Shown: positions 18,142 to 45,316 of the stretch, piece after piece
How the letters are laid out: each line of letters begins with the position of its first letter
Numbering within the stretch: position 1 is the stretch's first letter
Assembly (NCBI GenBank): GCA_902622795.1
Contig: CACNRD010000001.1
Span: forward strand, 248,001-312,000
Length of the DNA stretch: 64,000 bases
Direction: 5' to 3'
Source of the DNA: an uncultured Pelagibacteraceae bacterium
Lineage (GTDB): Bacteria > Pseudomonadota > Alphaproteobacteria > Pelagibacterales > Pelagibacteraceae
Notes under the pieces: model-generated
Told to the model about the DNA's origin: nothing
Database searches by the model: none
The model's input: only the letters and a program-made list of their open reading frames with translations
Made by a program: the position numbers and the translations under genes

Positions 18142-19455
18142 TTAATTGTTTTTATTATCCCTATAAAATTTTACAAATTCATTAAGATTTCTTTTTTTAT
18201 CACAATTTTTTAAATAGAGATAGTAATATACATGTGTTTCAATTTCACTTAAATTTTGATTCTTTAAATGACATTTAAATTCTTTTATTAATTCAATTTC
18301 TATATCTTTTTTAAGATTTAGTGCTTCACTTCTATACAAAAAATTATCTTTAAAACTGATCAAAGTAAAACTTAAAATGAGAATAAGATAATTAAATTGT
18401 TTAATTTTAAATTCAAAATTTTTAAAGAAATAAAAAATATAGAAAATAAAAAAATAGACAAAACCAACATATACTCTTTCTGGTGGTAGTTTGTTTAATA
18501 AAACAAAAAATAAAAAAAAATAAAATATAATGTAATCAAAAATAATTAATTTTTTTCTTAAAATATTTTTAAATAAAATTAAAAAAGAAGTAAAAAAAAT
18601 AAAATATAAAATAAAATTATTTTTAACATCTATTATTAAATAACTGATGTTTCCAAATAAAGACATCCTATTTAATGTATAATCAAAATAAATCGCTTCG
18701 AAACCACTTGCATATATATTGGTAAAATTTTGAATAATATATTCTGAAACAATAGGTTTCATATCATAAATGCCATGAAGGTATAAGCCAGTTATTAAAA
18801 TCTGAATCGTGTTTAAAAAAATAAAAATTGATAGAAAATATATTAAAAAAAAAATAAATTTTTTATTGAAAGAATATGATTTAAAATTAAAGAATATAGC
18901 TAATATTATTGGTATTACTAAATACAAAGAAGAAATATTGTTGATAATTTGTAAAGCACAAATTACGAAGATAATCTTCAAATCAGAATCAATTGGCTTT
19001 GAGAAATTTTTAAATATTAAATAGAAAACATAACAAAATAATAAAGATGATATATAATAACCTCTTAGTAGATAAGAATAATCAAATAAAACTTCTGATA
19101 ACAAAAAAATTAAAAATAAAATATAGACTAAAAATTTTTTTTTAAATGAGTTGTATAATATTAATAATATCGTAGGAAATGTTAAAAAATTTAAAAATTT
19201 AAGAAAAACTATATTAGTACCAACCATAAATTCTGTGAGCATACCAATCAATGAAATATAAAAATGATTATTTGGAAAATTTTTTAAAAAAATTGACTCT
19301 TTATAATAATACGTTGTTAGATTTACTACCTCATCATGTTCAACATAGTGATAATTTAATATAAATATTTTAATTATTAAGAAAATTATTAAGCTAGAAA
19401 ATAAATATAAATCAATTGAAATATTTTTAACTTTATAGACTAAATCATTAAACAT
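18142..19455 (-). CDS. Polytopic membrane protein, GT-C glycosyltransferase-like
   Basis: This 437-residue integral membrane protein has about ten hydrophobic segments and a short soluble tail (from about 385). Just after the first membrane span, at residues 39-42, is EHDE. An acidic pair in the first extracytoplasmic loop is the usual catalytic signature of GT-C enzymes, which use polyprenyl-phosphate sugars. A specific family was not recognised. Very AT-rich composition and location beside epimerase and GT2 genes suggest a variable cell-surface glycan function. No donor or acceptor can be assigned. Confidence 0.6.
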   Translation of the reverse strand: MFNDLVYKVKNISIDLYLFSSLIIFLIIKIFILNYHYVEHDEVVNLTTYYYKESIFLKNFPNNHFYISLIGMLTEFMVGTNIVFLKFLNFLTFPTILLILYNSFKKKFLVYILFLIFLLSEVLFDYSYLLRGYYISSLLFCYVFYLIFKNFSKPIDSDLKIIFVICALQIINNISSLYLVIPIILAIFFNFKSYSFNKKFIFFLIYFLSIFIFLNTIQILITGLYLHGIYDMKPIVSEYIIQNFTNIYASGFEAIYFDYTLNRMSLFGNISYLIIDVKNNFILYFIFFTSFLILFKNILRKKLIIFDYIIFYFFLFFVLLNKLPPERVYVGFVYFFIFYIFYFFKNFEFKIKQFNYLILILSFTLISFKDNFLYRSEALNLKKDIEIELIKEFKCHLKNQNLSEIETHVYYYLYLKNCDKKRNLNEFVKFYRDNKNN

Positions 19456-19518: not shown

Positions 19519-22095
19519 TTACTCAATTTTAATTTTTTTTTGAAAGCTTATTTTGTTATTTTCTAAGGATTTTATGCTGATAAATTTTTTACCTAATTTA
19601 TTATTATTCTTTTTTATTGTTTTAAAAAAATTCCAAGCAAGTACTATGATTAGTGAAGAATTATTTTTTAATTTATTCTTAGAATAAATAGGTATATTTA
19701 AACCAGGTAAAAATTTTCCATGTTTTAGTTTGTTGTCTTCAATTATAAAATTAATTTCTGATGTAATGCCAAAATAATTTAATGCAGTCGTAGCTTTTGC
19801 TGGTGAGCCATAACCAATGATTGAATTAAATTTTTTTTTTAAAAAAAGAATATTTTTTTGAACGTTAATTTTTATATTTTCAACTTTCTTAGCAAATACT
19901 GCGAAAGTTTTAAATTTTTTTATTCCAAATTTTTTTTCTTCGTTAAGTATCTTATTTATACTAATATCTTTTCTTTTATTTAAATCTTTTGAGACATAAA
20001 TTCTTAAAGAACCTCCGTGGGTATCAATTTTTTCAGCTTTAAAAATATTTGCATTTAATTTTTGAAAAAAATAATTCAATGTAGTTAGTGACCAATAATT
20101 GTAGTGTTCATGATAAATATTATCAAAAGTTAAATCTTTGATGGTATTAATTAAATATTGAATTTCTATAATTGCAGTTCCTTTTTTTGAAAGGAGAGAC
20201 AGAATACATTTAGCCATCAAATTTAAATCATCTGAATGGGCAAATACATTGGATGCTAAAACTAAATCAGCCTTTTTTTTAATTTTATTCACACATTTTT
20301 TATCTAAAAATGAATTGATTACCTTAATTCCTTTTTTTTTTGAAATTTTACATAAATTAATTGCTGGTTCAACACCGAGAAGATTTTTATAACCTTTGTT
20401 CTTAAAAGGCATCAACCCAATTCCATCATTACTTCCAATATCAATTATAAAAGAATTTTTATTTAATTTTAAATTTTTAATAAATTTTGTAGCTGCTTTT
20501 TTGAAATGTTCTTGAAAAGGTTTGGAGGCAGATGAAAGATAGTAATATTTTTTGAACATTTTTTTAGAATCAACTGCCATAGATAATTGTACATTGTAAC
20601 AATTCTGACAAAAATTTAATTCTAATGGATATTTTTCTACTTTTTCTGAAGTTTTTTTTATTAAGTTGTTTGCTAAGGGTTGAAAACCCAAAGATAAAAT
20701 TCTTTTTAATTTATTATTACCACAACACCTACAATCAAATTTATAAAACTTAATTAAATTTTTACCTTCTTCATTATCTAATAATTTGTATGGCATAGTA
20801 TGCGTAATTCCATAATTTTTATGTTTTCTTTCTCCTCTCACTAAATTTAAAAAAGTGGAATTTTTGGTAAAAGCCATTGCATGAGCTACATTTGGTTTTG
20901 TTATAATTAAATCACCTTCATTAACTACATGAGTAATTTTTTCAGTTTTTTTATTTATTAAATCTTTATAAACACTTATAAATTGACCTTTTGTAAGCAA
21001 ACATTTTTGTTCTTGCACTGGATGAAAATGATTAGCTCTAATTGATCCTTTTTTTGACTCAATATGTCCAATTAAATTGATTGGCTCTGGTAATTCAAAA
21101 TTATTTATTTTTCCTCTACTATCTATGAATTGATCTTTTCCCTGAAATATATGTTCTAATTTATTTTCGTTTTTTTTAAAATTCCATTGTTGAAACATTT
21201 CTTCCAATGAGGGTTTAAGATTGTATAAAAATTTAAATCCTGTCTTTAGCAACTTTTTATTAGACAAAGTATAACCTAAATTAGGAGTTTCATCTTGCGT
21301 GTTTTGTAATGTAATCCTAGGATTTATCTTTTTACACAATTGAGCTACTTCTTTTACAGTTAGTTGTTCATTAACAATATGAAATGTTTCATTGTTAATT
21401 TTTTCATTTTCTTCCATAAATTTCATACATCTAACAACATCTATTATGTTAACTAAACTTTTGAGCTGTCTTCCTCCAGAAAAAAGTTTGATCGTTCCAT
21501 TTTGTGATGTAATTTTTGAAAATAGATTTGGCATGATATTTATTCTCATTGTATCTGAAGAATATCCATAAACAGATCCGAGTCTTAATATTATATATTT
21601 TTTATTTGAATTTTTAATATCAATTTCGTTTTGAACTTTACTAGTTGAATACATCAAAACTGGTTTTGTAAGATCATCTTCAGTTATATTTTTTTTAGCT
21701 TTTTGATATCCTTCAAAAACAACATGAGTAGAAGGAAATATAATTTTACAATTTGGTGATATATTATTTAAGATATTATTTGTTCCATCAATAGCTAAAG
21801 ATCTTATTTTCTCGTCCAATTCAGAGTTAGCTTCTGTTTTTACGTACGCTACATCAGTAACACCAGCTAAGTGATGAACTATATCAGCATCTACAAGATG
21901 TTTTTTTAAAAAATCATTATCAAGAATATGCCCTTGAAAAAATTCTATGTTCCAACTATTAAGTTGACTCACCCTCTCAGATACAAATCTATTATCTAAA
22001 GCTATAATCTTATTTCTCCAACTTTCACCAGAATAAATCTTACATAATTCTGTTCCTAAGTATCCTAAAGCACCTACAATGACGATTTTTTTCAT
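19519..22095 (-). CDS. Three-domain fusion: NAD-dependent sugar epimerase / cupin / SAM C-methyltransferase
   Basis: One uninterrupted 858-residue frame holds three enzyme-like units. Residues 1-305 are an extended short-chain dehydrogenase with the glycine motif GALGYLG (8-14) and catalytic YSTSK (149-153). Residues about 315-435 form a cupin resembling sugar isomerases/epimerases, with HFHPVQE (356-362) and His405. Residues about 450-858 resemble nucleotide-sugar C-methyltransferases: zinc ligands CRCC (455-458) and CQNC (496-499), SAM motif IDIGSNDG (551-558), and a C-terminal domain with GYGSPAKATTALN. All key residues seen are intact, so this is not a decayed gene. Likely role: making a modified, probably branched or methylated deoxysugar for a surface glycan. 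It is followed upstream by a GT2 gene 4 bases away. Confidence 0.8.
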   Translation of the reverse strand: MKKIVIVGALGYLGTELCKIYSGESWRNKIIALDNRFVSERVSQLNSWNIEFFQGHILDNDFLKKHLVDADIVHHLAGVTDVAYVKTEANSELDEKIRSLAIDGTNNILNNISPNCKIIFPSTHVVFEGYQKAKKNITEDDLTKPVLMYSTSKVQNEIDIKNSNKKYIILRLGSVYGYSSDTMRINIMPNLFSKITSQNGTIKLFSGGRQLKSLVNIIDVVRCMKFMEENEKINNETFHIVNEQLTVKEVAQLCKKINPRITLQNTQDETPNLGYTLSNKKLLKTGFKFLYNLKPSLEEMFQQWNFKKNENKLEHIFQGKDQFIDSRGKINNFELPEPINLIGHIESKKGSIRANHFHPVQEQKCLLTKGQFISVYKDLINKKTEKITHVVNEGDLIITKPNVAHAMAFTKNSTFLNLVRGERKHKNYGITHTMPYKLLDNEEGKNLIKFYKFDCRCCGNNKLKRILSLGFQPLANNLIKKTSEKVEKYPLELNFCQNCYNVQLSMAVDSKKMFKKYYYLSSASKPFQEHFKKAATKFIKNLKLNKNSFIIDIGSNDGIGLMPFKNKGYKNLLGVEPAINLCKISKKKGIKVINSFLDKKCVNKIKKKADLVLASNVFAHSDDLNLMAKCILSLLSKKGTAIIEIQYLINTIKDLTFDNIYHEHYNYWSLTTLNYFFQKLNANIFKAEKIDTHGGSLRIYVSKDLNKRKDISINKILNEEKKFGIKKFKTFAVFAKKVENIKINVQKNILFLKKKFNSIIGYGSPAKATTALNYFGITSEINFIIEDNKLKHGKFLPGLNIPIYSKNKLKNNSSLIIVLAWNFFKTIKKNNNKLGKKFISIKSLENNKISFQKKIKIE

Positions 22096-22099
22096 CTAA

Positions 22100-22789
22100 T
22101 CAAACAAATCTTCTTATCACTATTTGAAAAATTACTCCAAATATATGATAAAATTTTATTTTTTTTCCTTCATCTTTACTTCTTCCGTTATAATTTATTG
22201 GTACTTCATAAAATTTTTTTCCATTCTTAACAACTTTACATAATATTTCTGCATGTTGCTCAAAACCTTCTGTTTTAAGACCTGGAATATCTAAATTTTT
22301 TTTTTTGAAACATGCATAGCAAGAATAAATATCAGTAAATGTAGTATTATATAAAATATTAAATAAAGTTGTAATAAAGTAATTTCCAAACTTATTAAAA
22401 ATATTATGCGATCTAGTGTAGTCCGAATAATTGAACCTAGATCCTATTATTAAATCTGGTTCAAATTTTTCAATCAAATTAGAAAATTTTATAATATCAT
22501 TAGGATCATATTCTAAATCTGCATCTTGAAAAAAAATAAATTCACCAGTACTTATTTCTAAACCTTTCTTGACTGAATATCCTTTGCCACGATTAGTAGA
22601 ATTTGTTATCAAAAAATCATAAAGATTTTTGTTTTCTTCTAGGATATTATTAGTTTTATCATTAGATCCATCGTCAATAACAATTATCTCTAAATTTTTA
22701 ATAGAATTTTTAATTGGAGAAAGCTTATTTAAAATATCTAAAATTGTATTTTCTTCATTAAAACATGGAATTAAAATGCTTAATTTCAT
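22100..22789 (-). CDS. GT2 family glycosyltransferase (polyprenyl-phosphate sugar synthase-like)
   Basis: This GT-A fold enzyme of 229 residues has the N-terminus LSILIPCFNEENTI, the nucleotide-binding IVIDDGSNDKT segment and the metal-binding FFQDADLEYDPND region. That organisation resembles dolichol/undecaprenyl-phosphate mannose or glucose synthases without the C-terminal membrane domain. Such enzymes supply lipid-linked sugars to GT-C transferases, which fits the GT-C-like protein two genes downstream. It is transcribed just ahead of the fusion gene, with a 4-base gap. The sugar is unknown. Confidence 0.82.
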   Translation of the reverse strand: MKLSILIPCFNEENTILDILNKLSPIKNSIKNLEIIVIDDGSNDKTNNILEENKNLYDFLITNSTNRGKGYSVKKGLEISTGEFIFFQDADLEYDPNDIIKFSNLIEKFEPDLIIGSRFNYSDYTRSHNIFNKFGNYFITTLFNILYNTTFTDIYSCYACFKKKNLDIPGLKTEGFEQHAEILCKVVKNGKKFYEVPINYNGRSKDEGKKIKFYHIFGVIFQIVIRRFV

Positions 22790-24058: not shown

Positions 24059-25795
24059 ATGGCTGATTTAAAAGAAATTGTAGATTGTATTAACAAAGGA
24101 AATTTAAAAGAAGCTTTAAAACTTTGTGATACTTATGAAAATGAGAAAAATAAAAAATTTATTTTAAACTTTAGGGGTGCAGTTCATTTAATTAAGGGAA
24201 ATTTAGATATTGCAGAAAAAAATTTTTTAGATGCTGCTAGAATTGACTCAAAGTTTATAGATCCTCTTAAAAATCTTTACTTAATATGTTTAAAAAAAAG
24301 AGATTATAAAGATCTGTTAACTTACGCTCAAAAACTGCTTGAGGCTGACAGATTGGAAAATGAACATAATTATAAACTAGCATATGCTTTTGAGCTAAAT
24401 AATAATTTAAAAGACTCAATTGAATATTATAAAAGATATGTCGATAAGAAAGGTAAAAATAGTAAACAAGCTTTTAATAATATTGGATGCATATATTTAA
24501 AAAGAAATAAGCCAAAGATTGCAATTAATTTTTTTAAAGATGGTTTAAATTTTGGAGAAGACAAAACCATAACCAATAATATTTTTAAATGTTACGTTTT
24601 ATTGAGAGACTTAGAGAATTCTGATTTTTACTATGATAAAGCGATAAAATTTGATGAAAATTATTTAGAGTTTAAACATACAAAAGCTAAATACTTTATT
24701 CTTAAAAATCAAATCACTGAAGCTATTGAAATTTTAATAGAAAATAAAGATAAACCAAGATTTTTAATTACTCTACTTGTTCTATATTTCAATCTTGGTA
24801 AAAATGAAGAAGGGATAAAACTTTTAAATCAGTCAAAAGATAAGATGAAAAAAGATCCTATCTATTACAATTATTTAGGGTTGAGATTATTATATGAAGG
24901 TGATTTCAAAGATGGCTGGAGGTTTTATGAACATAGAAATTCCAAAAAAGTTGATTTTTTTAAAGAAACAAAGGAATGGTCTGGTGAAACAATAGAAAAT
25001 AAGAATATTGTTGTTTTTACTGAACAAGGTTTAGGAGATGCTATACAATTTTCAAAGTATATAATTCCTTTATGCAAAATTGCAAAAAAAGTAACGTTTG
25101 TAACTAAGGACAGTATCAAACCCCTTTTCAAAGAAGAATTAGAAAATTTAACTATAGAAACTATTGAAAGTTGTAAAAATAAAAAGTTTGATCTTAAGAT
25201 AGCTCTTGGATCTTTAATAAAATTTTTTTTTGAAGAAAAATTCAGTAAAAATGAAAATTTAATTATATCAAATAAGGCCCTTGATTTAAAATGGAAAAAA
25301 AAAATACCACAAAATAAATTAAATATCGGTATAAGTTGGTCTGGAAGTTTTAATGGTCCTAATGAACCTTATCGGTCAATACCACTCCAAGAACTTGAAA
25401 AATTATTTTCTTTAGATGTAAATTTTTATTGCTTACAAAACGAAATTTGGGACAGAGATTTAGATTATTTTAAAACGCTAAACCTAACTAACTGTGGTGA
25501 ATATAAATTAACTGAAATAGCATCAATTATTCAGAATTTAGATCTTGTAATTACGAGTGATACTTCCTTGTTACATTTATCAGCTTCTTTAAATAAGCAA
25601 ACATGGGGGCTCTTAAGTTTGTATCCTGATTGGCGATGGAGTGAATTTAATAAAATTAATCCATATTCAAATTTAAAAATTTTTAAACAAAAATCCTTTA
25701 AGGATTGGAGTGAAATTGAGGAATTAGTTGTTACTGAGTTACAAAATAAAATTTATACCTTTAATAATTCCAATAAATCAAAGACTAATTTGTAG
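24059..25795 (+). CDS. TPR-repeat protein with GT9/GT41-like glycosyltransferase domain
   Basis: This is a 578-residue cytoplasmic protein with no signal peptide. The N-terminal half (about 1-280) is a chain of TPR-like helical pairs, for example FNNIGCIYLKRNKPKIAINF. The C-terminal half (about 310-560) resembles the glycosyltransferase-9 fold: an EQGLGDAIQFSKYI loop, then TSDTSLLHLSASLNKQTWGL and PDWRW near the end. Such TPR-GT proteins are common in marine bacteria; the acceptor is unknown. It is preceded by two 28-base repeats and followed, 38 bases later, by the glucosylglycerate genes. Confidence 0.75.
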   Translation: MADLKEIVDCINKGNLKEALKLCDTYENEKNKKFILNFRGAVHLIKGNLDIAEKNFLDAARIDSKFIDPLKNLYLICLKKRDYKDLLTYAQKLLEADRLENEHNYKLAYAFELNNNLKDSIEYYKRYVDKKGKNSKQAFNNIGCIYLKRNKPKIAINFFKDGLNFGEDKTITNNIFKCYVLLRDLENSDFYYDKAIKFDENYLEFKHTKAKYFILKNQITEAIEILIENKDKPRFLITLLVLYFNLGKNEEGIKLLNQSKDKMKKDPIYYNYLGLRLLYEGDFKDGWRFYEHRNSKKVDFFKETKEWSGETIENKNIVVFTEQGLGDAIQFSKYIIPLCKIAKKVTFVTKDSIKPLFKEELENLTIETIESCKNKKFDLKIALGSLIKFFFEEKFSKNENLIISNKALDLKWKKKIPQNKLNIGISWSGSFNGPNEPYRSIPLQELEKLFSLDVNFYCLQNEIWDRDLDYFKTLNLTNCGEYKLTEIASIIQNLDLVITSDTSLLHLSASLNKQTWGLLSLYPDWRWSEFNKINPYSNLKIFKQKSFKDWSEIEELVVTELQNKIYTFNNSNKSKTNL

Positions 25796-25833: not shown

Positions 25834-26640
25834 ATGGAAAAAGCATTCAAAGTTTTGATATTTACCGATCTTGATGGCTCACTTCTTCATAGAGATACTT
25901 TCAAATTTGATGAAATAAAAGACTATATGAAAGAATTAATATCTAAGGGTATTTTCATTATACCCAACACGAGTAAAACTGAAAAAGAAATTTTAGCATT
26001 TAACAACGAATTAGGCACAAGTTTACCTTACATCTCTGAAAATGGTGCTGCTATAAACGGTTTAGATTTATTAAATTCAAATTTACCTAAAGAATTAATA
26101 CTTAGTAGAGAAAAAGATAATCTTATAAAAATTTTTGAAAAATCAGTACCAGTAAATTTACAAAGTAAATGCAAATGGTTATCGGAAATGAATAAGAAAA
26201 AACAAAGCTTAATTTTTGGTTTAGAAGATGAAAAACTTAAAATGGCTTTAGATCGTAAATACACCATTCCTTTTATATTTGACGGAATTAAAAGTGAAAA
26301 AAATGAGTTGTTCAAAGTTGTTAAAAAAAAAGATTTAGCTTTACAGGAAGGTGGTAGAGTTATTAATTTAACTGATAAGGTAAATAAAGCTAAAGCACTT
26401 CAAGTATTTGTAAGATTTTTTAAAAAAAATAACAAAAATGTAAAAACAATAGCTGTTGGTGATAATTACAACGATTTAGATATGCTTAAAATTAGTGATT
26501 TTCCTTGTCTTGTCTTTAATGATAAATTTACATTAGATCAAATCCCTATAAATAATTTAATAACAACAAATAAGCCATCCCCTGAGGGCTGGGCAGATGT
26601 GGTCAAAATGGCTCTAGTTAAAGTAAATAAAAATTATTAA
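25834..26640 (+). CDS. Mannosyl-/glucosyl-3-phosphoglycerate phosphatase (HAD family)
   Basis: This enzyme removes phosphate from sugar-3-phosphoglycerate to give the compatible solute. The 268-residue protein has HAD motif I FTDLDGSLL (Asp12 and Asp14), a TSKTEKEI motif II region, the C2 cap and motif IV GDNYNDLDML. This layout matches the MPGP subfamily of HAD phosphatases, which includes both mannosyl- and glucosyl-specific enzymes. The synthase gene follows 8 bases later and looks like GpgS, so glucosyl specificity is favoured (inference from context). Confidence 0.85.
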   Translation: MEKAFKVLIFTDLDGSLLHRDTFKFDEIKDYMKELISKGIFIIPNTSKTEKEILAFNNELGTSLPYISENGAAINGLDLLNSNLPKELILSREKDNLIKIFEKSVPVNLQSKCKWLSEMNKKKQSLIFGLEDEKLKMALDRKYTIPFIFDGIKSEKNELFKVVKKKDLALQEGGRVINLTDKVNKAKALQVFVRFFKKNNKNVKTIAVGDNYNDLDMLKISDFPCLVFNDKFTLDQIPINNLITTNKPSPEGWADVVKMALVKVNKNY

Positions 26641-26648
26641 AGTTCATT

Positions 26649-27869
26649 ATGAGTGATTTTTCTCAAAATGGAATAATTTCTACACTTCATGATTTTGGAA
26701 CAAAATCTTTAGAGCAAATAGAAAAGGAGCTTTTAGGCTTTTCTGAAGAGAGAAAGATGGAGCTCATCTTACCATGTCTTTATTCAGAATTAAAAGGTGA
26801 TGCATTACCTAATATTGTAAAAGAGATAAGCAAAACAAATTATATACATCATATAATCATAGGCTTAGATCAAGCAAGCGAAGCTGAAGCAAGGAAAGCT
26901 TGGACTTTTTTTGAAAAATTAGAAACTCCTTTTACAATCCTTTGGAATGACGGTCCTAATTTAAAAAAATTAGACAAAGAATTACAAGAAAAGGGATTAG
27001 CGCCAAATGAATATGGCAAAGGAAGAAATGTTTGGTACTGCATAGGTATGTCTATTGCACGAGATAGCGCGCGGTCTGTTGCATTACATGATTGCGATAT
27101 CAAAACTTATGACCGAAGAATGTTAGCAAAATTATTTTATCCAGTTGTAAACCCTCTTTTTAACTTTGAATTTTGTAAAGGTTTTTATCCAAGAGTTGCT
27201 GACAACAAGATGAATGGACGTGTAGCAAGATTATTAGTTTTTCCCTTGTTAAATGCTTTAGAAAAAACTATTGGCAAGAGTGACTATCTAGATTTTATGA
27301 AATCATTTAAATACCCATTAGCTGGCGAATTTTCTTTTAGAAGAAATATTTTACCAGAACTTAGAATTTCATCTGACTGGGGTATAGAAATTGGAATTTT
27401 GTCAGAAATGCAAAGAAATTTTTCTCCTCAAAATATTTGCCAAGTAGATTTAGCAGATACTTATGACCATAAACATCAAGATTTATCTCTTGATGATGAA
27501 AAAAAAGGTTTATCAAGAATGTCTATAGATATTATAAAAACTTTTATAAAAAAATTAGCAACACAAGGTCATTCATTTAGTAGAGAACAATTAAGATCTT
27601 TGAAAGCAACTTATTACAGATCTGCTTTAGATCTTATAGATGCTTACAGAGCTGATGCTGAAATGAATGGTCTAAAATTTGACTCTCATACAGAAGAAAA
27701 AGCAGTTGAGTTATTTTCAAGTAATATAATTAGAGCTGGAGAAGATTTTTATCTTAACCCAATGGATGCACCTTTTATACCCACGTGGAGTAGAGTTAAA
27801 AGTGCAATACCAGATTTTCTAGTAAGATTAGAAAAGGCTGTTAATGAAGATAACAAACGTTATCTATAG
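26649..27869 (+). CDS. gpgS: Glucosyl-3-phosphoglycerate synthase (GT81-like)
   Basis: The enzyme transfers glucose from NDP-glucose to 3-phosphoglycerate. The 406-residue protein has a GT-A core with LILPCLYSEL near 39 and the metal-binding motif HDCD at 147-150. A helical C-terminal region runs from about 290. The segment FEFCKGFYPRVADNKMNGRV is typical of the GpgS/GT81 group rather than GT55 mannosyl enzymes. Placement directly after the phosphatase makes a two-step glucosylglycerate pathway. The sugar could still be mannose; only assay or close homologues can settle it. Confidence 0.8.
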   Translation: MSDFSQNGIISTLHDFGTKSLEQIEKELLGFSEERKMELILPCLYSELKGDALPNIVKEISKTNYIHHIIIGLDQASEAEARKAWTFFEKLETPFTILWNDGPNLKKLDKELQEKGLAPNEYGKGRNVWYCIGMSIARDSARSVALHDCDIKTYDRRMLAKLFYPVVNPLFNFEFCKGFYPRVADNKMNGRVARLLVFPLLNALEKTIGKSDYLDFMKSFKYPLAGEFSFRRNILPELRISSDWGIEIGILSEMQRNFSPQNICQVDLADTYDHKHQDLSLDDEKKGLSRMSIDIIKTFIKKLATQGHSFSREQLRSLKATYYRSALDLIDAYRADAEMNGLKFDSHTEEKAVELFSSNIIRAGEDFYLNPMDAPFIPTWSRVKSAIPDFLVRLEKAVNEDNKRYL

Positions 27870-27940
27870 CATTTTTAAGAAAATTGAAAATTACAATTCA
27901 ACTTCAAATTGATAGTATTTAATTTTTACCAAATATTTGC

Positions 27941-27960
27941 GACATGCTGTCAAATATAGT
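27941..27960 (+). promoter_or_regulatory. Putative promoter/operator of the sugar-transport genes
   Basis: In the 121-base spacer after gpgS, an inverted repeat GACA-TGC-TGTC (27941-27951) is followed at once by a TATAGT -10-like hexamer (27955-27960). A strong ribosome site AGGAGG lies just before the ATG at 27991. A repeat touching the -10 is where a repressor would act. No clear -35 was found. Confidence 0.35.
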
Positions 27961-27990
27961 ATTTTTTTTTAAAAAATCTCAGGAGGAGAA

Positions 27991-29319
27991 ATGAAAAATA
28001 TAGTTAAAATATTTTGCATAATTTCATTATTCATTACAAATGTCGTTTATGCAGATATTAAATTTTGGACTACAGAGGTCCAACCTGCTCGAATGGCTAA
28101 GCAAGAAGAAATGGCCAAAGCTTTTGAAGCTAAGACAGGTATTAAGGTTGAGGTAATTCCAATTGAAGAAAAGGAATTGGGTACTAGAGCCACCGCAGCA
28201 GCTGCTGCTGGCGACTTACCAGATGTGATTTATCACACTTTACAATATGTTTTACCTTGGGCGGAAGCTGGAATTCTAGATGTTGATGCCAATAACGCTG
28301 TGGTTAAAGCACTTGGTAAAAATACTTTTGCTCCAGGCGCTCTTAAAATGGCTAAGTCAGGATCAAAAATTGCTGCTGTCCCTGTTGATGGATGGACGCA
28401 AATGGTTGTTTATAGAAAGGATCTTTTTGAAAACGCTGATCTAGAACCACCAACAAGTTATGCTAACATTGTCAAAGCAGTTGAGAAATTATCAAAAGTA
28501 AATGGCGTGTTTGGTTTTGTAGCTGCTACTAAAACTGATGAGAATTTTATGAGTCAAGTTTTAGAACATGTTCTTTTAGCAAACGGGGTAAACATTGTTA
28601 AAAAGGGTGGTGTTAAGAAGCAAGGGAAAAAATTAAAAGAAGCATTAGAGTTCTATAAAGTCATTGCGAAGGCAAGTCCTCCAGGTGAACTTTATTGGAA
28701 ACAATCAAGAGCACTTTATTTTGCTGGAAAGACACCAATGATTATTTGGTCTCCCTTTATTATGGATGAACTTGCAGGTTTAAGAGATTCAGCTCCACCA
28801 ACAATTAATAGTGATCCAACTTCACCTGAATTAGCTTCTAAAACTGGTTTTATAACTAATTTCAGTGGACCAAGTAATAAAAAAGGTGCTGCGTGGGCTG
28901 ATATTAGATACTTTGGTATAACTGCTGATGCTGATACTGATGAAGCCAAGCAATTTATCATGTACTCTATGGATGAAGGTTACACAAGTACCTTATCAAT
29001 TGCTCCCGAAGGTAAATTTCCAGTAAGAAGAGGAAATTCGAGTGATCCTGAAGCATTTACAAAAGCTTGGAGTAAACTGCCAGTTGGAGTTGATAGAAAA
29101 GCTGCCTTGTCAGATCTTTATGACCCAGATGTTATAAATAACATTGTTGCAGGTTTAGATACTGCAAACAGATGGGGAGTTAAAGAAGGTGAACTATCTA
29201 GAGCATCTAAAATTATTAATTCACAATTCATGAACAGAATCACAAGAGAATATATCGATGATGAAATTTCTGTTGATGAAGCAGTTGATAAAATAAATGC
29301 TGGATTAGCTAGCTTCTAA
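27991..29319 (+). CDS. ABC transporter sugar-binding protein (CUT1-type)
   Basis: This is a periplasmic solute-binding protein of 442 residues. A signal peptide covers residues 1-21 (cleavage after VVYA, before DIKFW) and is followed by the SBP family 1 fold with AKAFEAKTGIKVEVI. It has the best Shine-Dalgarno in the cluster (AGGAGG), consistent with high expression. A terminator hairpin follows, then two permease genes. The ligand is probably a sugar or glycoside; the cluster suggests glucosylglycerate or a related molecule (inference). Confidence 0.85.
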   Translation: MKNIVKIFCIISLFITNVVYADIKFWTTEVQPARMAKQEEMAKAFEAKTGIKVEVIPIEEKELGTRATAAAAAGDLPDVIYHTLQYVLPWAEAGILDVDANNAVVKALGKNTFAPGALKMAKSGSKIAAVPVDGWTQMVVYRKDLFENADLEPPTSYANIVKAVEKLSKVNGVFGFVAATKTDENFMSQVLEHVLLANGVNIVKKGGVKKQGKKLKEALEFYKVIAKASPPGELYWKQSRALYFAGKTPMIIWSPFIMDELAGLRDSAPPTINSDPTSPELASKTGFITNFSGPSNKKGAAWADIRYFGITADADTDEAKQFIMYSMDEGYTSTLSIAPEGKFPVRRGNSSDPEAFTKAWSKLPVGVDRKAALSDLYDPDVINNIVAGLDTANRWGVKEGELSRASKIINSQFMNRITREYIDDEISVDEAVDKINAGLASF

Positions 29320-42799: not shown

Positions 42800-43066
42800 A
42801 TGAAACAATTCATTTATAAAACTATTATTGTAATAATTGCTATTGTTGCCATTTATGAATTTACTATTTCAAAACAAATCAAACAAATTACTGAGCAAAG
42901 TGAAATTTTACTGAGTAAAGAAGGACGAAAAGAAGGAATAGAAAAACTAAGAGATGAATTAAAAAAAGCCATTAAAAAAGAAAGATATCTATCAAAAGAA
43001 GACGCAAAATTAATTAAAGATTTTATTCAAAAAATTGCCATTGAATTAAAAGATGAAGAAAATTAA
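42800..43066 (+). CDS. Small single-span membrane protein with coiled-coil tail
   Basis: This 88-residue protein of unknown function has an N-terminal transmembrane helix (about 6-22, IYKTIIVIIAIVAIYEFTI). A Lys/Glu-rich, probably coiled-coil tail follows, which would face the periplasm or cytoplasm. It lies 19 bases after grxD. Its stop TTAA is shared with the convergent GT-C gene. Composition and the clean start support a real gene. Confidence 0.65.
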   Translation: MKQFIYKTIIVIIAIVAIYEFTISKQIKQITEQSEILLSKEGRKEGIEKLRDELKKAIKKERYLSKEDAKLIKDFIQKIAIELKDEEN

Positions 43067-44634
43067 TCACAATACCACGCAGATCCAACTTTAATTCGCT
43101 GATTGCTAAATAAATAATTGTAATTTTCAGAGACAATTAGTTTGCAGTCCTTTGGATCAGATCTTCTTAAATTTCTATGATTTTGCATAACATAGTAAGG
43201 TCGCTCTTTAGCAGCGTCTAATTCACTATACATTTTGAAGCATTTAAATTTTTGTCTCTCAAGATAAACCTTGGAATATAAGTCTCCATAAACACAATTA
43301 TTTTTATTAAAATTATTTTTTGAAGAATGTTCAACAATTGAAGTATATAAACTCTTATTACTAATTCCCCAATAATCTACTTCGAAATTTTTATTAATTT
43401 TATAAATCTTGGAAAGTGAATTCATCCAGGTATATTGATAAGGATTGATTGATATATTTTCTATAACAAAAAAAATAATCATAAAAATACTTGAAAAGTA
43501 AAAAAATTTTTTATTTAGTATGTATAAATTATTTAGTGAAATTAAAAATATTAATGGAATTAGAAACATAATATGTCTAATTTCATTATAAATTGCTACA
43601 TCAAATATTATAAAAAGAAATAATATTGAACTACAAGTAATAATTAATGAAAAAGTTAAAATTTTATTTAAATCATTTTTTGAAAATTTTTTCTCTACAA
43701 AAGGAAATAAAATAATTCCTAAAATTATTAAAATAGGTAACTTAAAAAAAAACCAAATAAAGTAATAACTTGATGGTAAATTAAGAGACTTCATGTATTC
43801 ACCAAGGGTCAAAGTACTCACATTTTGTTGATAATTACTCATCCATCTTACAGAATTAATTATTTCTTTTGGGTCATGCCAAAAAATTGGATTTAGCAAA
43901 TATGTAAAAAATGAAATAAAAAAAATAAATAAAAATAAATATTTGTAATTATCTTTAAGAATATTGAAAAAATTTTTCTTTTTAACTTCACAATAAGTAA
44001 AAATAAAAATTAAGTATTGTAATAAAATTAATATACCTAAAATTCTAATAGAAATAAGAAATGATGTGGATACAGATAAATATATTATAAAGCTAAGAGG
44101 AATTTTTTTCTTTTTAAAAAGTTTTTTTATAATCTTACACAAAATGTATGTGCTTATTATCCAGAACGCTAAAAAAGGAATATCTTTAGGATTCATTAAT
44201 GAGTGACCAAAAAAATATGGATATAGCAAAAATAAAAAAAGTGAAATTATTGCGATTTTTTCATTATTAAAAAAAATTAAACTTATTTTGAAAAAAAAAA
44301 GTCCTGATATAAAAAATAAAATAAAGATAACGGGATGTTTTGATATAAGTATGGATCCATATTCACTTATATTTAAGTAATTTATTAGTTCATCTTTTAT
44401 TAAATATTGAAATGGCTGGCTTAAAAAATTAAAACCAATTCCGTGATATCTATCTTTATATTCTAATAGATCTTTATATGTTCCAGTTCTAAAAAAATCT
44501 ACAATTGCCCCTAAATTTACTTCCCAATTAAGTTGTTCGTGAAATTCATCATGAGATATTCCAATATTTATACTTAAATAGATTCCTATGAATAGATAAA
44601 TTAATAGTAAAGTTATCTCTTTATATTTTTTCAT
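43063..44634 (-). CDS. Polytopic membrane protein, GT-C glycosyltransferase-like
   Basis: This membrane protein has about 523 residues from the ATG at 44634, with about eleven hydrophobic segments and a soluble C-terminal part (from about 410) with several cysteines. GISHDEFHEQ follows the first span (His28, Asp29, Glu30), the place of the catalytic acid in GT-C enzymes. The track start at 44688 is a TTG deep inside the methyltransferase gene, so I prefer ATG 44634, which overlaps by 14 bases. It shares its stop tetranucleotide with the convergent small-protein gene. Probably surface glycan assembly; substrate unknown. Confidence 0.62.
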   Translation of the reverse strand: MKKYKEITLLLIYLFIGIYLSINIGISHDEFHEQLNWEVNLGAIVDFFRTGTYKDLLEYKDRYHGIGFNFLSQPFQYLIKDELINYLNISEYGSILISKHPVIFILFFISGLFFFKISLIFFNNEKIAIISLFLFLLYPYFFGHSLMNPKDIPFLAFWIISTYILCKIIKKLFKKKKIPLSFIIYLSVSTSFLISIRILGILILLQYLIFIFTYCEVKKKNFFNILKDNYKYLFLFIFFISFFTYLLNPIFWHDPKEIINSVRWMSNYQQNVSTLTLGEYMKSLNLPSSYYFIWFFFKLPILIILGIILFPFVEKKFSKNDLNKILTFSLIITCSSILFLFIIFDVAIYNEIRHIMFLIPLIFLISLNNLYILNKKFFYFSSIFMIIFFVIENISINPYQYTWMNSLSKIYKINKNFEVDYWGISNKSLYTSIVEHSSKNNFNKNNCVYGDLYSKVYLERQKFKCFKMYSELDAAKERPYYVMQNHRNLRRSDPKDCKLIVSENYNYLFSNQRIKVGSAWYCD

Positions 44635-45316
44635 TTTTAAGAACACAAAATAAAGACTTACCAATTTTATTGAATGTAAAATAATCAATAAATTTTGATA
44701 TAGGAATTAATAAATTCCAAAAACTAACTTTAGTTTTTAAATTTGATTGATTTAACGAAAAAAACTTACTTATTATTAGTAGGAGAAAACCAATACTATC
44801 ATAATAAGACATGTTAATGATTTTAAATTTTGTTTTTTTTGACATTAAAAAAAAGTCTTTTTTATTGTATCTTTTAAAATGACCAACACTTTTATCAAAA
44901 TCATTATAAAACTGTTGATGGGCAGGAACATTTATAATCAAATATCCATCCTTATTTAATTTACTTTTTGCTATTCTTAATTCTCTTAAATCTTTTTTAA
45001 TATGCTCCAAAACGTCAAAATATATTATAACATCATATTTTTGATTAATATTTTCTAATAACGAATTTTTGATTATTATTTTTTTATTATTTTTAAATTT
45101 TTTTTTTAATGATCTATAAAGTTTTTTATCAGGTTCAATTAAGGTTATTTTTTTTAAATAATTTTTGTATAATTTAGTCATGCCACCTTGGCCAGGACCA
45201 ACTTCTAAAAAGGAACCTTTAAGGTATGGTTTAATTAATTGTAACTGGTATTTTCGAAAATTTTGAGCTGAGTCAAAATGTTCTAGTTCAAATCCATCAT
45301 ATTGGACTTGTTTCAT
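44621..45316 (-). CDS. Class I SAM-dependent methyltransferase
   Basis: This 231-residue protein has motif I FLEVGPGQGG, the post-I acidic LIEPDKKL, motif II VIIYFDVLEHIKKD and motif III KDGYLIINVPAHQ, which is the standard order for class I enzymes of the Methyltransf_11/12 type. It lacks membrane segments apart from a weak hydrophobic stretch near 175-190. It starts 2 bases after the rpsD stop and overlaps the GT-C gene. The pairing with a GT-C gene suggests modification of a surface sugar or lipid. Confidence 0.75.
   Translation of the reverse strand: MKQVQYDGFELEHFDSAQNFRKYQLQLIKPYLKGSFLEVGPGQGGMTKLYKNYLKKITLIEPDKKLYRSLKKKFKNNKKIIIKNSLLENINQKYDVIIYFDVLEHIKKDLRELRIAKSKLNKDGYLIINVPAHQQFYNDFDKSVGHFKRYNKKDFFLMSKKTKFKIINMSYYDSIGFLLLIISKFFSLNQSNLKTKVSFWNLLIPISKFIDYFTFNKIGKSLFCVLKNEKI

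Follow-up and report, generated by a model that had tools for sequence, protein, structure and literature searches.

The locus analysed here raises the question of which sugar is made by a single protein that strings together three kinds of NDP-sugar enzyme, and for what use. It lies in a 64,000-nucleotide stretch of DNA (the window) from an uncultured member of the Pelagibacteraceae, whose genome comprises 1.02 Mb in 19 contigs and is 84% complete. SAR11 bacteria are among the most abundant cells of the ocean, their genomes are very small and their surface sugars are little known. That some 40% of sampled species, and phages besides, retain a 2.6-kb gene for one rare branched sugar points to a genuine function of that sugar at the cell surface, which may lie in recognition by phages.

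Architecture of the fusion protein

The gene (19519..22095, minus strand) opens with ATG and runs as an intact frame of 858 amino acids in the ORF list; a plus-strand reading of the same segment was rejected owing to its many stops and lack of a frame. The ORF, Pfam, an AlphaFold (AF2) model and full-length homologs together define it as a fusion of a short-chain dehydrogenase/reductase (SDR), a cupin and a C-methyltransferase (MT). A sequence-only reading of this DNA had described three enzymes in one frame with their key residues kept, and both statements hold. Every motif that it quoted was located, namely YSTSK (Y149, K153), HFHPVQE (356-362), CRCC (455-458), CQNC (496-499) and IDIGSNDG (551-558), the full-length protein is recurrent, and the catalytic and metal-ligand positions of these NDP-sugar enzyme families are retained in all or nearly all of the 90 copies. 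The AF2 model, built with 33 sequences, has a mean pLDDT of 82.9 and falls to low values at residues 308-311 and 422-430, near both of the linkers for which that reading had proposed structure prediction. In Foldseek searches with this model MtmC, KijD1 and TcaB9 rank first, followed by Cj1427 for the SDR.

The SDR domain (residues 1-311; 21163..22095, minus strand) carries GxxGxxG, D34, Y149 and K153 and matches PF01370 at residues 4-238 (E 3.9e-19). Its nearest solved relative by profile search is Cj1427 (8.8e-30, the next match being 6.9e-17), with Foldseek TMt of 0.84-0.86 and an identity of only ~24%; CapF is not among the profile matches at E<=1e-8, and many of these are 4-epimerases. 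Y149 and K153 are present in 89/90 copies, the remaining one having a gap, and the glycine motifs are invariant across the 90 copies, gaps aside. The Asp-Glu dyad of 4,6-dehydratases (S/T-DEVY) is missing, its place being taken by PSTHVVFEG, whereas RmlB neighbours of the fusion carry STDEVYG or SSDEVYG. The fused SDR was therefore rejected as a 4,6-dehydratase; it should not make a 4-keto-6-deoxy sugar as RmlB does, which leaves RfbG, RmlB or GMD as the necessary source of such a substrate.

The metal-type cupin (residues 312-447; 20755..21162, minus strand) stays below threshold when the full-length protein is scanned with Pfam, which finds the SDR and MT domains. Cupin segments taken alone weakly match Polysacc_synt_C (PF14667, to which the C-terminus of CapF belongs) and Cupin_2 (PF07883) in 17/17 aligned members, with best E of 7e-5 and 2e-4 respectively, both matches of the window copy lying under the curated cut-offs. 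CapF is the best cupin match by profile (E 0.05), and it supplies the top four Foldseek matches of a cupin-only model (pLDDT 81; E 1.8e-7 to 6.9e-7, 16-18% identity). The predicted CapF-type Zn pattern comprises H356, H358 and H405, kept in 90/90 copies, and E362, kept in 86/90 with Q in the other four; a D325-x-R327-G motif is also present. At E of 0.05 to 1e-4 the sequence support is weak. The domain resembles a metal-dependent epimerase of the CapF type more than the ketoisomerase implied by the isomerisation step that the sequence-only reading had proposed.

The MT domain (residues 448-858; 19522..20754, minus strand) is of the TylC3 type, whose members methylate C3 of a 4-keto sugar. Its zinc-binding subdomain (20554..20733, minus strand) matches PF08421 at residues 455-514 (E 1.9e-16), and the four zinc cysteines, 455, 458, 496 and 499, are present in 90/90 copies. 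PF13489 is also matched, as is the C-terminal PF08484 at 692-835 (E 8.9e-37), so that Methyltransf_13 with four Cys, a SAM domain and Methyltransf_14, the domain set of the family, are all present. The best profile match is MtmC (4rv9, 1.1e-84), KijD1 and TcaB9 being matched as well, and Foldseek of the MT part against these three gives TMt of 0.87-0.90. An active-site motif, YHEH (residues 661-664; 20104..20115, minus strand), is invariant in 90/90 copies and aligns with IYDEH of KijD1. Likewise invariant in 90/90 copies, Y519, H620, Y661, E663 and H664 correspond to Y76, H181, Y222, E224 and H225 of TcaB9, as deduced from the KijD1 alignment and from PDB titles that name the mutants. The C-methylation predicted earlier is thus strongly indicated by homology, and at C3.

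Distribution in SAR11 and phages

The fusion occurs at full length in 59/147 sampled Pelagibacteraceae genomes (60 matches, two of them in G029), and loci of ~80 other genomes hold the same domain order at full length, a recurrence that exceeds chance. An order-level search separated fused proteins (~250 bits, ORFs of ~850 aa) from stand-alone ones (mostly 20-64 bits, ~140 aa). Among the 289 genomes of the class-level sample the fusion was found solely in the host genome itself, a cupin-profile search covering 399 genomes from the phylum found stand-alone cupins only elsewhere, and the best 80 matches of a genome-collection scan with near-exact peptides were all from Pelagibacterales; outside Pseudomonadota, sampling was by pattern scans alone, so that copies in other phyla may exist. 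The plasmid collection yielded MT alone or cupin with MT, and not the full fusion.

Purifying selection acts on each of the three domains: dN/dS is ~0.01-0.15 per domain in ten closely related pairs, wherever dS could be calculated. The pairwise distances of the domains co-vary (r 0.81-0.90), which fits a single ancient fusion passed on whole. The idea of an error in assembly or sequencing, or of a gene in decay, deserves hardly any credence: some few copies are in pieces (L091 and L212, each with an apparent frameshift, L213 and G114), but single-cell genomes, MAGs and phage contigs, dozens of them and independent of one another, have intact ~850-aa ORFs, and the low dN/dS extends to every domain for which dS could be calculated. 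These independent intact copies refute an assembly artefact. Natural splitting of L212 and L213 was set aside, L212 looking like a frameshift and L213 being explicable by a one-base indel; in the latter phage copy (L213:2974-5534) two ORFs, SDR-cupin and MT, overlap at ATGA, which fits a natural split or such an indel. Of the doubts attached to the sequence-only reading, assembly error is thereby excluded and the architecture does turn out to be common in SAR11 and phages; the openly available papers that were searched contained nothing on this architecture, its characterisation or SAR11 sugar C-methyltransferases.

Separate genes of related kinds were also found. Two SAR11 loci (L157 and L158) carry GT17, an RmlB-type dehydratase, cupin, MT and Gfo/Idh in this order, all as separate genes, with 37% identity to the fusion in the cupin and 39-41% in the MT. 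Cupin and MT thus share family and order with the fusion, and the operon is likewise flanked by GT17; its SDR, unlike the fused type, is an RmlB-type 4,6-dehydratase with SSDEVYG. Cupin and MT are adjacent genes in other Alphaproteobacteria (L127-L129) and in other sampled Pseudomonadota (L161 and L163), and the host genome itself holds a separate set of MT, SDR, FdtA-like cupin and RmlD-like genes (L125).

Phage copies were recovered from nine contigs in a first viral scan and from 41 distinct IMG/VR contigs in an alignment-based scan that required a fusion ORF no shorter than 780 aa. Genuine phages are among them, with contigs that encode T4 Gp23 and portal proteins (L086/G987), Gp23 with SbcC/SbcD-like recombination proteins (L087/G988), or a phage DNA polymerase and clamp loader (L089/G990), and a 642-kb phage genome, LR756502, carries the fusion at 55% identity. 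Phage and SAR11 copies are separated in the tree by a fully supported branch (100/100), so that recent exchange is not indicated. By fold, the best viral match is to Klosneuvirus KNV1, whose 743-aa methyltransferase (BFVD A0A1V0SJ68) aligns with the fusion from end to end (E 1.2e-42). LPS-related genes are reported in pelagimyophages, and a mention of the fused enzyme was not found there (PMC7029224).

Further phages (L217-L226, L234 and L235) hold a close MT (47-58% identity), mostly beside a different SDR, and a cupin gene was not detected in the stretch around it; the cupin step may therefore be dispensable for some products. On the phage contig of L089, an S-adenosylmethionine synthetase and an adenine phosphoribosyltransferase (L171:6314-7267) lie ~10 kb from the fusion, and the former possibly supplies the methyl donor.

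Genomic context and proposed pathway

In the window, a GT2 glycosyltransferase resembling polyprenyl-phosphate-sugar synthases (22100..22789, minus strand; PF00535, 2.7e-28) lies upstream in the same operon, its stop 4 bp from the start of the fusion; AglJ, PpgS and dolichyl-P hexose transferase models are among its matches, all below cut-off. Starting 63 bp downstream of the fusion is a multi-pass membrane protein (18142..19455, minus strand) with seven hydrophobic segments and an early EHDE motif, which has no Pfam or NCBIfam match and which we infer from hydrophobicity and this one motif to be a candidate GT-C glycosyltransferase. Only two relatives of it were found in 117 other genomes. 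Periplasmic glycosylation systems are laid out with a GT2 and a GT-C enzyme (PMC11127046). A three-component system of this sort would combine a polyprenyl-phosphate sugar synthase, a flippase and a GT-C; the GT2 is present here and the GT-C is a candidate, and a flippase was not identified next to them.

Across the 90 copies the commonest of these neighbours is a GT17 glycosyltransferase (PF04724), found near 57 of them, followed by GT2 (9 copies), RmlB-like genes (8), GMD (5) and Gfo/Idh (3), counts that are not independent since many SAR11 copies sit at one lon-nuo site. GT17 is also found near the fusion at other SAR11 sites (the L006 group, L019, L030 and L041) and in the T4-like phage L087, and lies directly upstream of it in LR756502. 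Copies linked to GT2 are scattered within the SAR11 part of the tree.

Other regions of the host genome were noted in passing. Its lon-nuo site (L124:6653-11418) has an RfbF/RfbG/RfbH-like CDP-sugar cluster in place of the fusion. In the window, 24059-25795 encodes a protein in which TPR repeats precede a stretch of GT9-type glycosyltransferase, and 25834-29319 holds mannosyl-3-phosphoglycerate-phosphatase-like, glucosyl-3-phosphoglycerate-synthase-like (GpgS model, below cut-off) and solute-binding protein genes, which probably serve compatible-solute synthesis and sugar uptake. An AT-rich segment (43063-45316, ~21% GC) has a 541-aa ORF with no NCBIfam match beside a weak RsmA-like methyltransferase.

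As regards the source of the 4-keto sugar, no one dehydratase type goes with all copies of the fusion. RmlB stands beside it in L041, L047 and L083 and GMD in five phage contigs; GMD lies within ~3 kb of it in 9/41 phage loci. RfbG is present in 40/59 genomes with the fusion against 27/88 without (p=1e-5), and RfbG or GMD in 50/59 against 54/88 (p=0.003), while co-occurrence of GMD in SAR11 genomes is not significant (38/59 against 45/88, p=0.13); the test ignores phylogeny in all three comparisons. A strong match to the GDP_Man_Dehyd family was found in 19/20 tested genomes with the fusion. In G042, a 93%-complete MAG with the fusion, a 4,6-dehydratase was not evident; MAGs lose islands. A pathway through CDP-sugars only, which would be vinelose-like, was rejected, as RfbG is absent in 19/59 fusion genomes and RmlB or GMD stands beside other copies.

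Taken together, the three-module enzyme would, as we see it, probably convert an NDP-4-keto-6-deoxyhexose to an NDP-3-C-methyl-6-deoxyhexose for a surface glycan, module activities, substrate, step order and product all being predicted. A separate 4,6-dehydratase (RfbG, RmlB or GMD) would supply the 4-keto sugar, the metal cupin would epimerise the carbon or carbons beside the ketone, and the MT would then transfer a methyl group from SAM to C3 via an enolate. The SDR would reduce C4 last with NAD(P)H, and a neighbouring glycosyltransferase (mostly GT17; here GT2, possibly with its GT-C partner) would put the sugar into the glycan. The order follows the analogy with CapF, in which the Zn cupin first epimerises what CapE, the preceding enzyme, has made, and the SDR then reduces it with NADPH (PMC5393024); the cupin would thus epimerise and the SDR reduce, with methylation in between. 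Reduction had been named as the first step by the sequence-only reading; a reductase role does appear the likelier one for the SDR, but more likely as the last step, unless the domain is an oxidase.

The oxidase is the serious minority candidate. A Cj1427-like SDR could make the 4-keto sugar from an ordinary NDP-hexose, after which the cupin would epimerise, the MT methylate and an outside reductase (e.g. Gfo/Idh or RmlD) finish, giving a product that would retain its 6-OH. Cj1427 itself oxidises C4 before a C3/C5 epimerase and a C4-reductase act (PMC10680097), and this working direction leaves the proposal real weight, together with the clear lead of Cj1427 among solved SDRs, the Gfo/Idh genes near some copies (L030, L041 and L061) and MAG G042. 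Its standing is lowered by the low identity to Cj1427, by the RmlB or GMD genes adjoining several copies and the 4,6-dehydratase-family matches in nearly all tested genomes, and by the required downstream reductase, which is not consistently linked to the fusion. It is improbable that the SDR is an epimerase or catalytically minor and that the MT performs both C-methylation and ketoreduction. MtmC, to which the MT is nearest among solved structures, combines ketoreductase and methyltransferase functions (PMC5103430), and reduction by the MT part is accordingly conceivable; 4-epimerases are moreover frequent among the SDR matches. Yet TcaB9 and KijD1 match the fold just as closely and are listed plainly as C3-methyltransferases, and the YxxxK and glycine motifs of the SDR are invariant bar gaps in a domain under purifying selection.

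A bolder reading is, in our judgement, rather doubtful. It would make the fusion a self-contained three-step enzyme, common to SAR11 and T4-like phages and absent from the other genomes sampled, that passes the keto-sugar between its modules towards an undescribed C-methyl-branched surface sugar; the phages would carry it alongside GMD and GT17 genes of their own so as to modify the glycans of host or virion. One protein permits direct testing of branched-sugar synthesis and of possible channelling, which the sequence-only reading had supposed for an unstable keto-sugar intermediate.

Relation to known systems

The MT shares its whole fold, four-Cys zinc site, SAM motif and Y/H/E/H active site with MtmC, TcaB9, KijD1 and TylC3; those are separate proteins of actinobacterial antibiotic pathways, whereas the fused MT forms the C-terminal half of a protein of SAR11 and phages. 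CapF (Cap5F) of Staphylococcus aureus likewise joins an N-terminal SDR and a C-terminal metal cupin in one chain and takes its substrate from a preceding enzyme, as proposed for the fusion, and its cupin is the nearest by Pfam, profile and fold. Unlike the fusion, it handles UDP-N-acetyl sugars and has no methyltransferase, and the fused SDR is closer to Cj1427. The latter, the GDP-heptose C4-dehydrogenase of Campylobacter jejuni and nearest solved structure to the fused SDR, has a C3/C5 epimerase as a separate pathway partner and is itself a stand-alone, oxidising enzyme. Tightly bound NADH, re-oxidised by alpha-ketoglutarate, and oxidation at C4 are its marks.

The virenose pathway proposed in silico for Coxiella burnetii, with a 4,6-dehydratase and a TylC3 homolog (PMC3539893), offers a Gram-negative surface 3-C-methyl-6-deoxy sugar like the proposed product, though its genes are separate. 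The RmlC/RmlD fusion of Prymnesium parvum and the trifunctional plant RHM (PMC6556577) are precedents for joining the epimerase and reductase steps of NDP-sugar pathways, but they make rhamnose and lack a C-methyltransferase. Each module is therefore of a known kind and pairwise epimerase-reductase fusions are known (CapF; RmlC/RmlD, PMC6556577); the SDR-cupin-C-methyltransferase fusion is a new combination of them.
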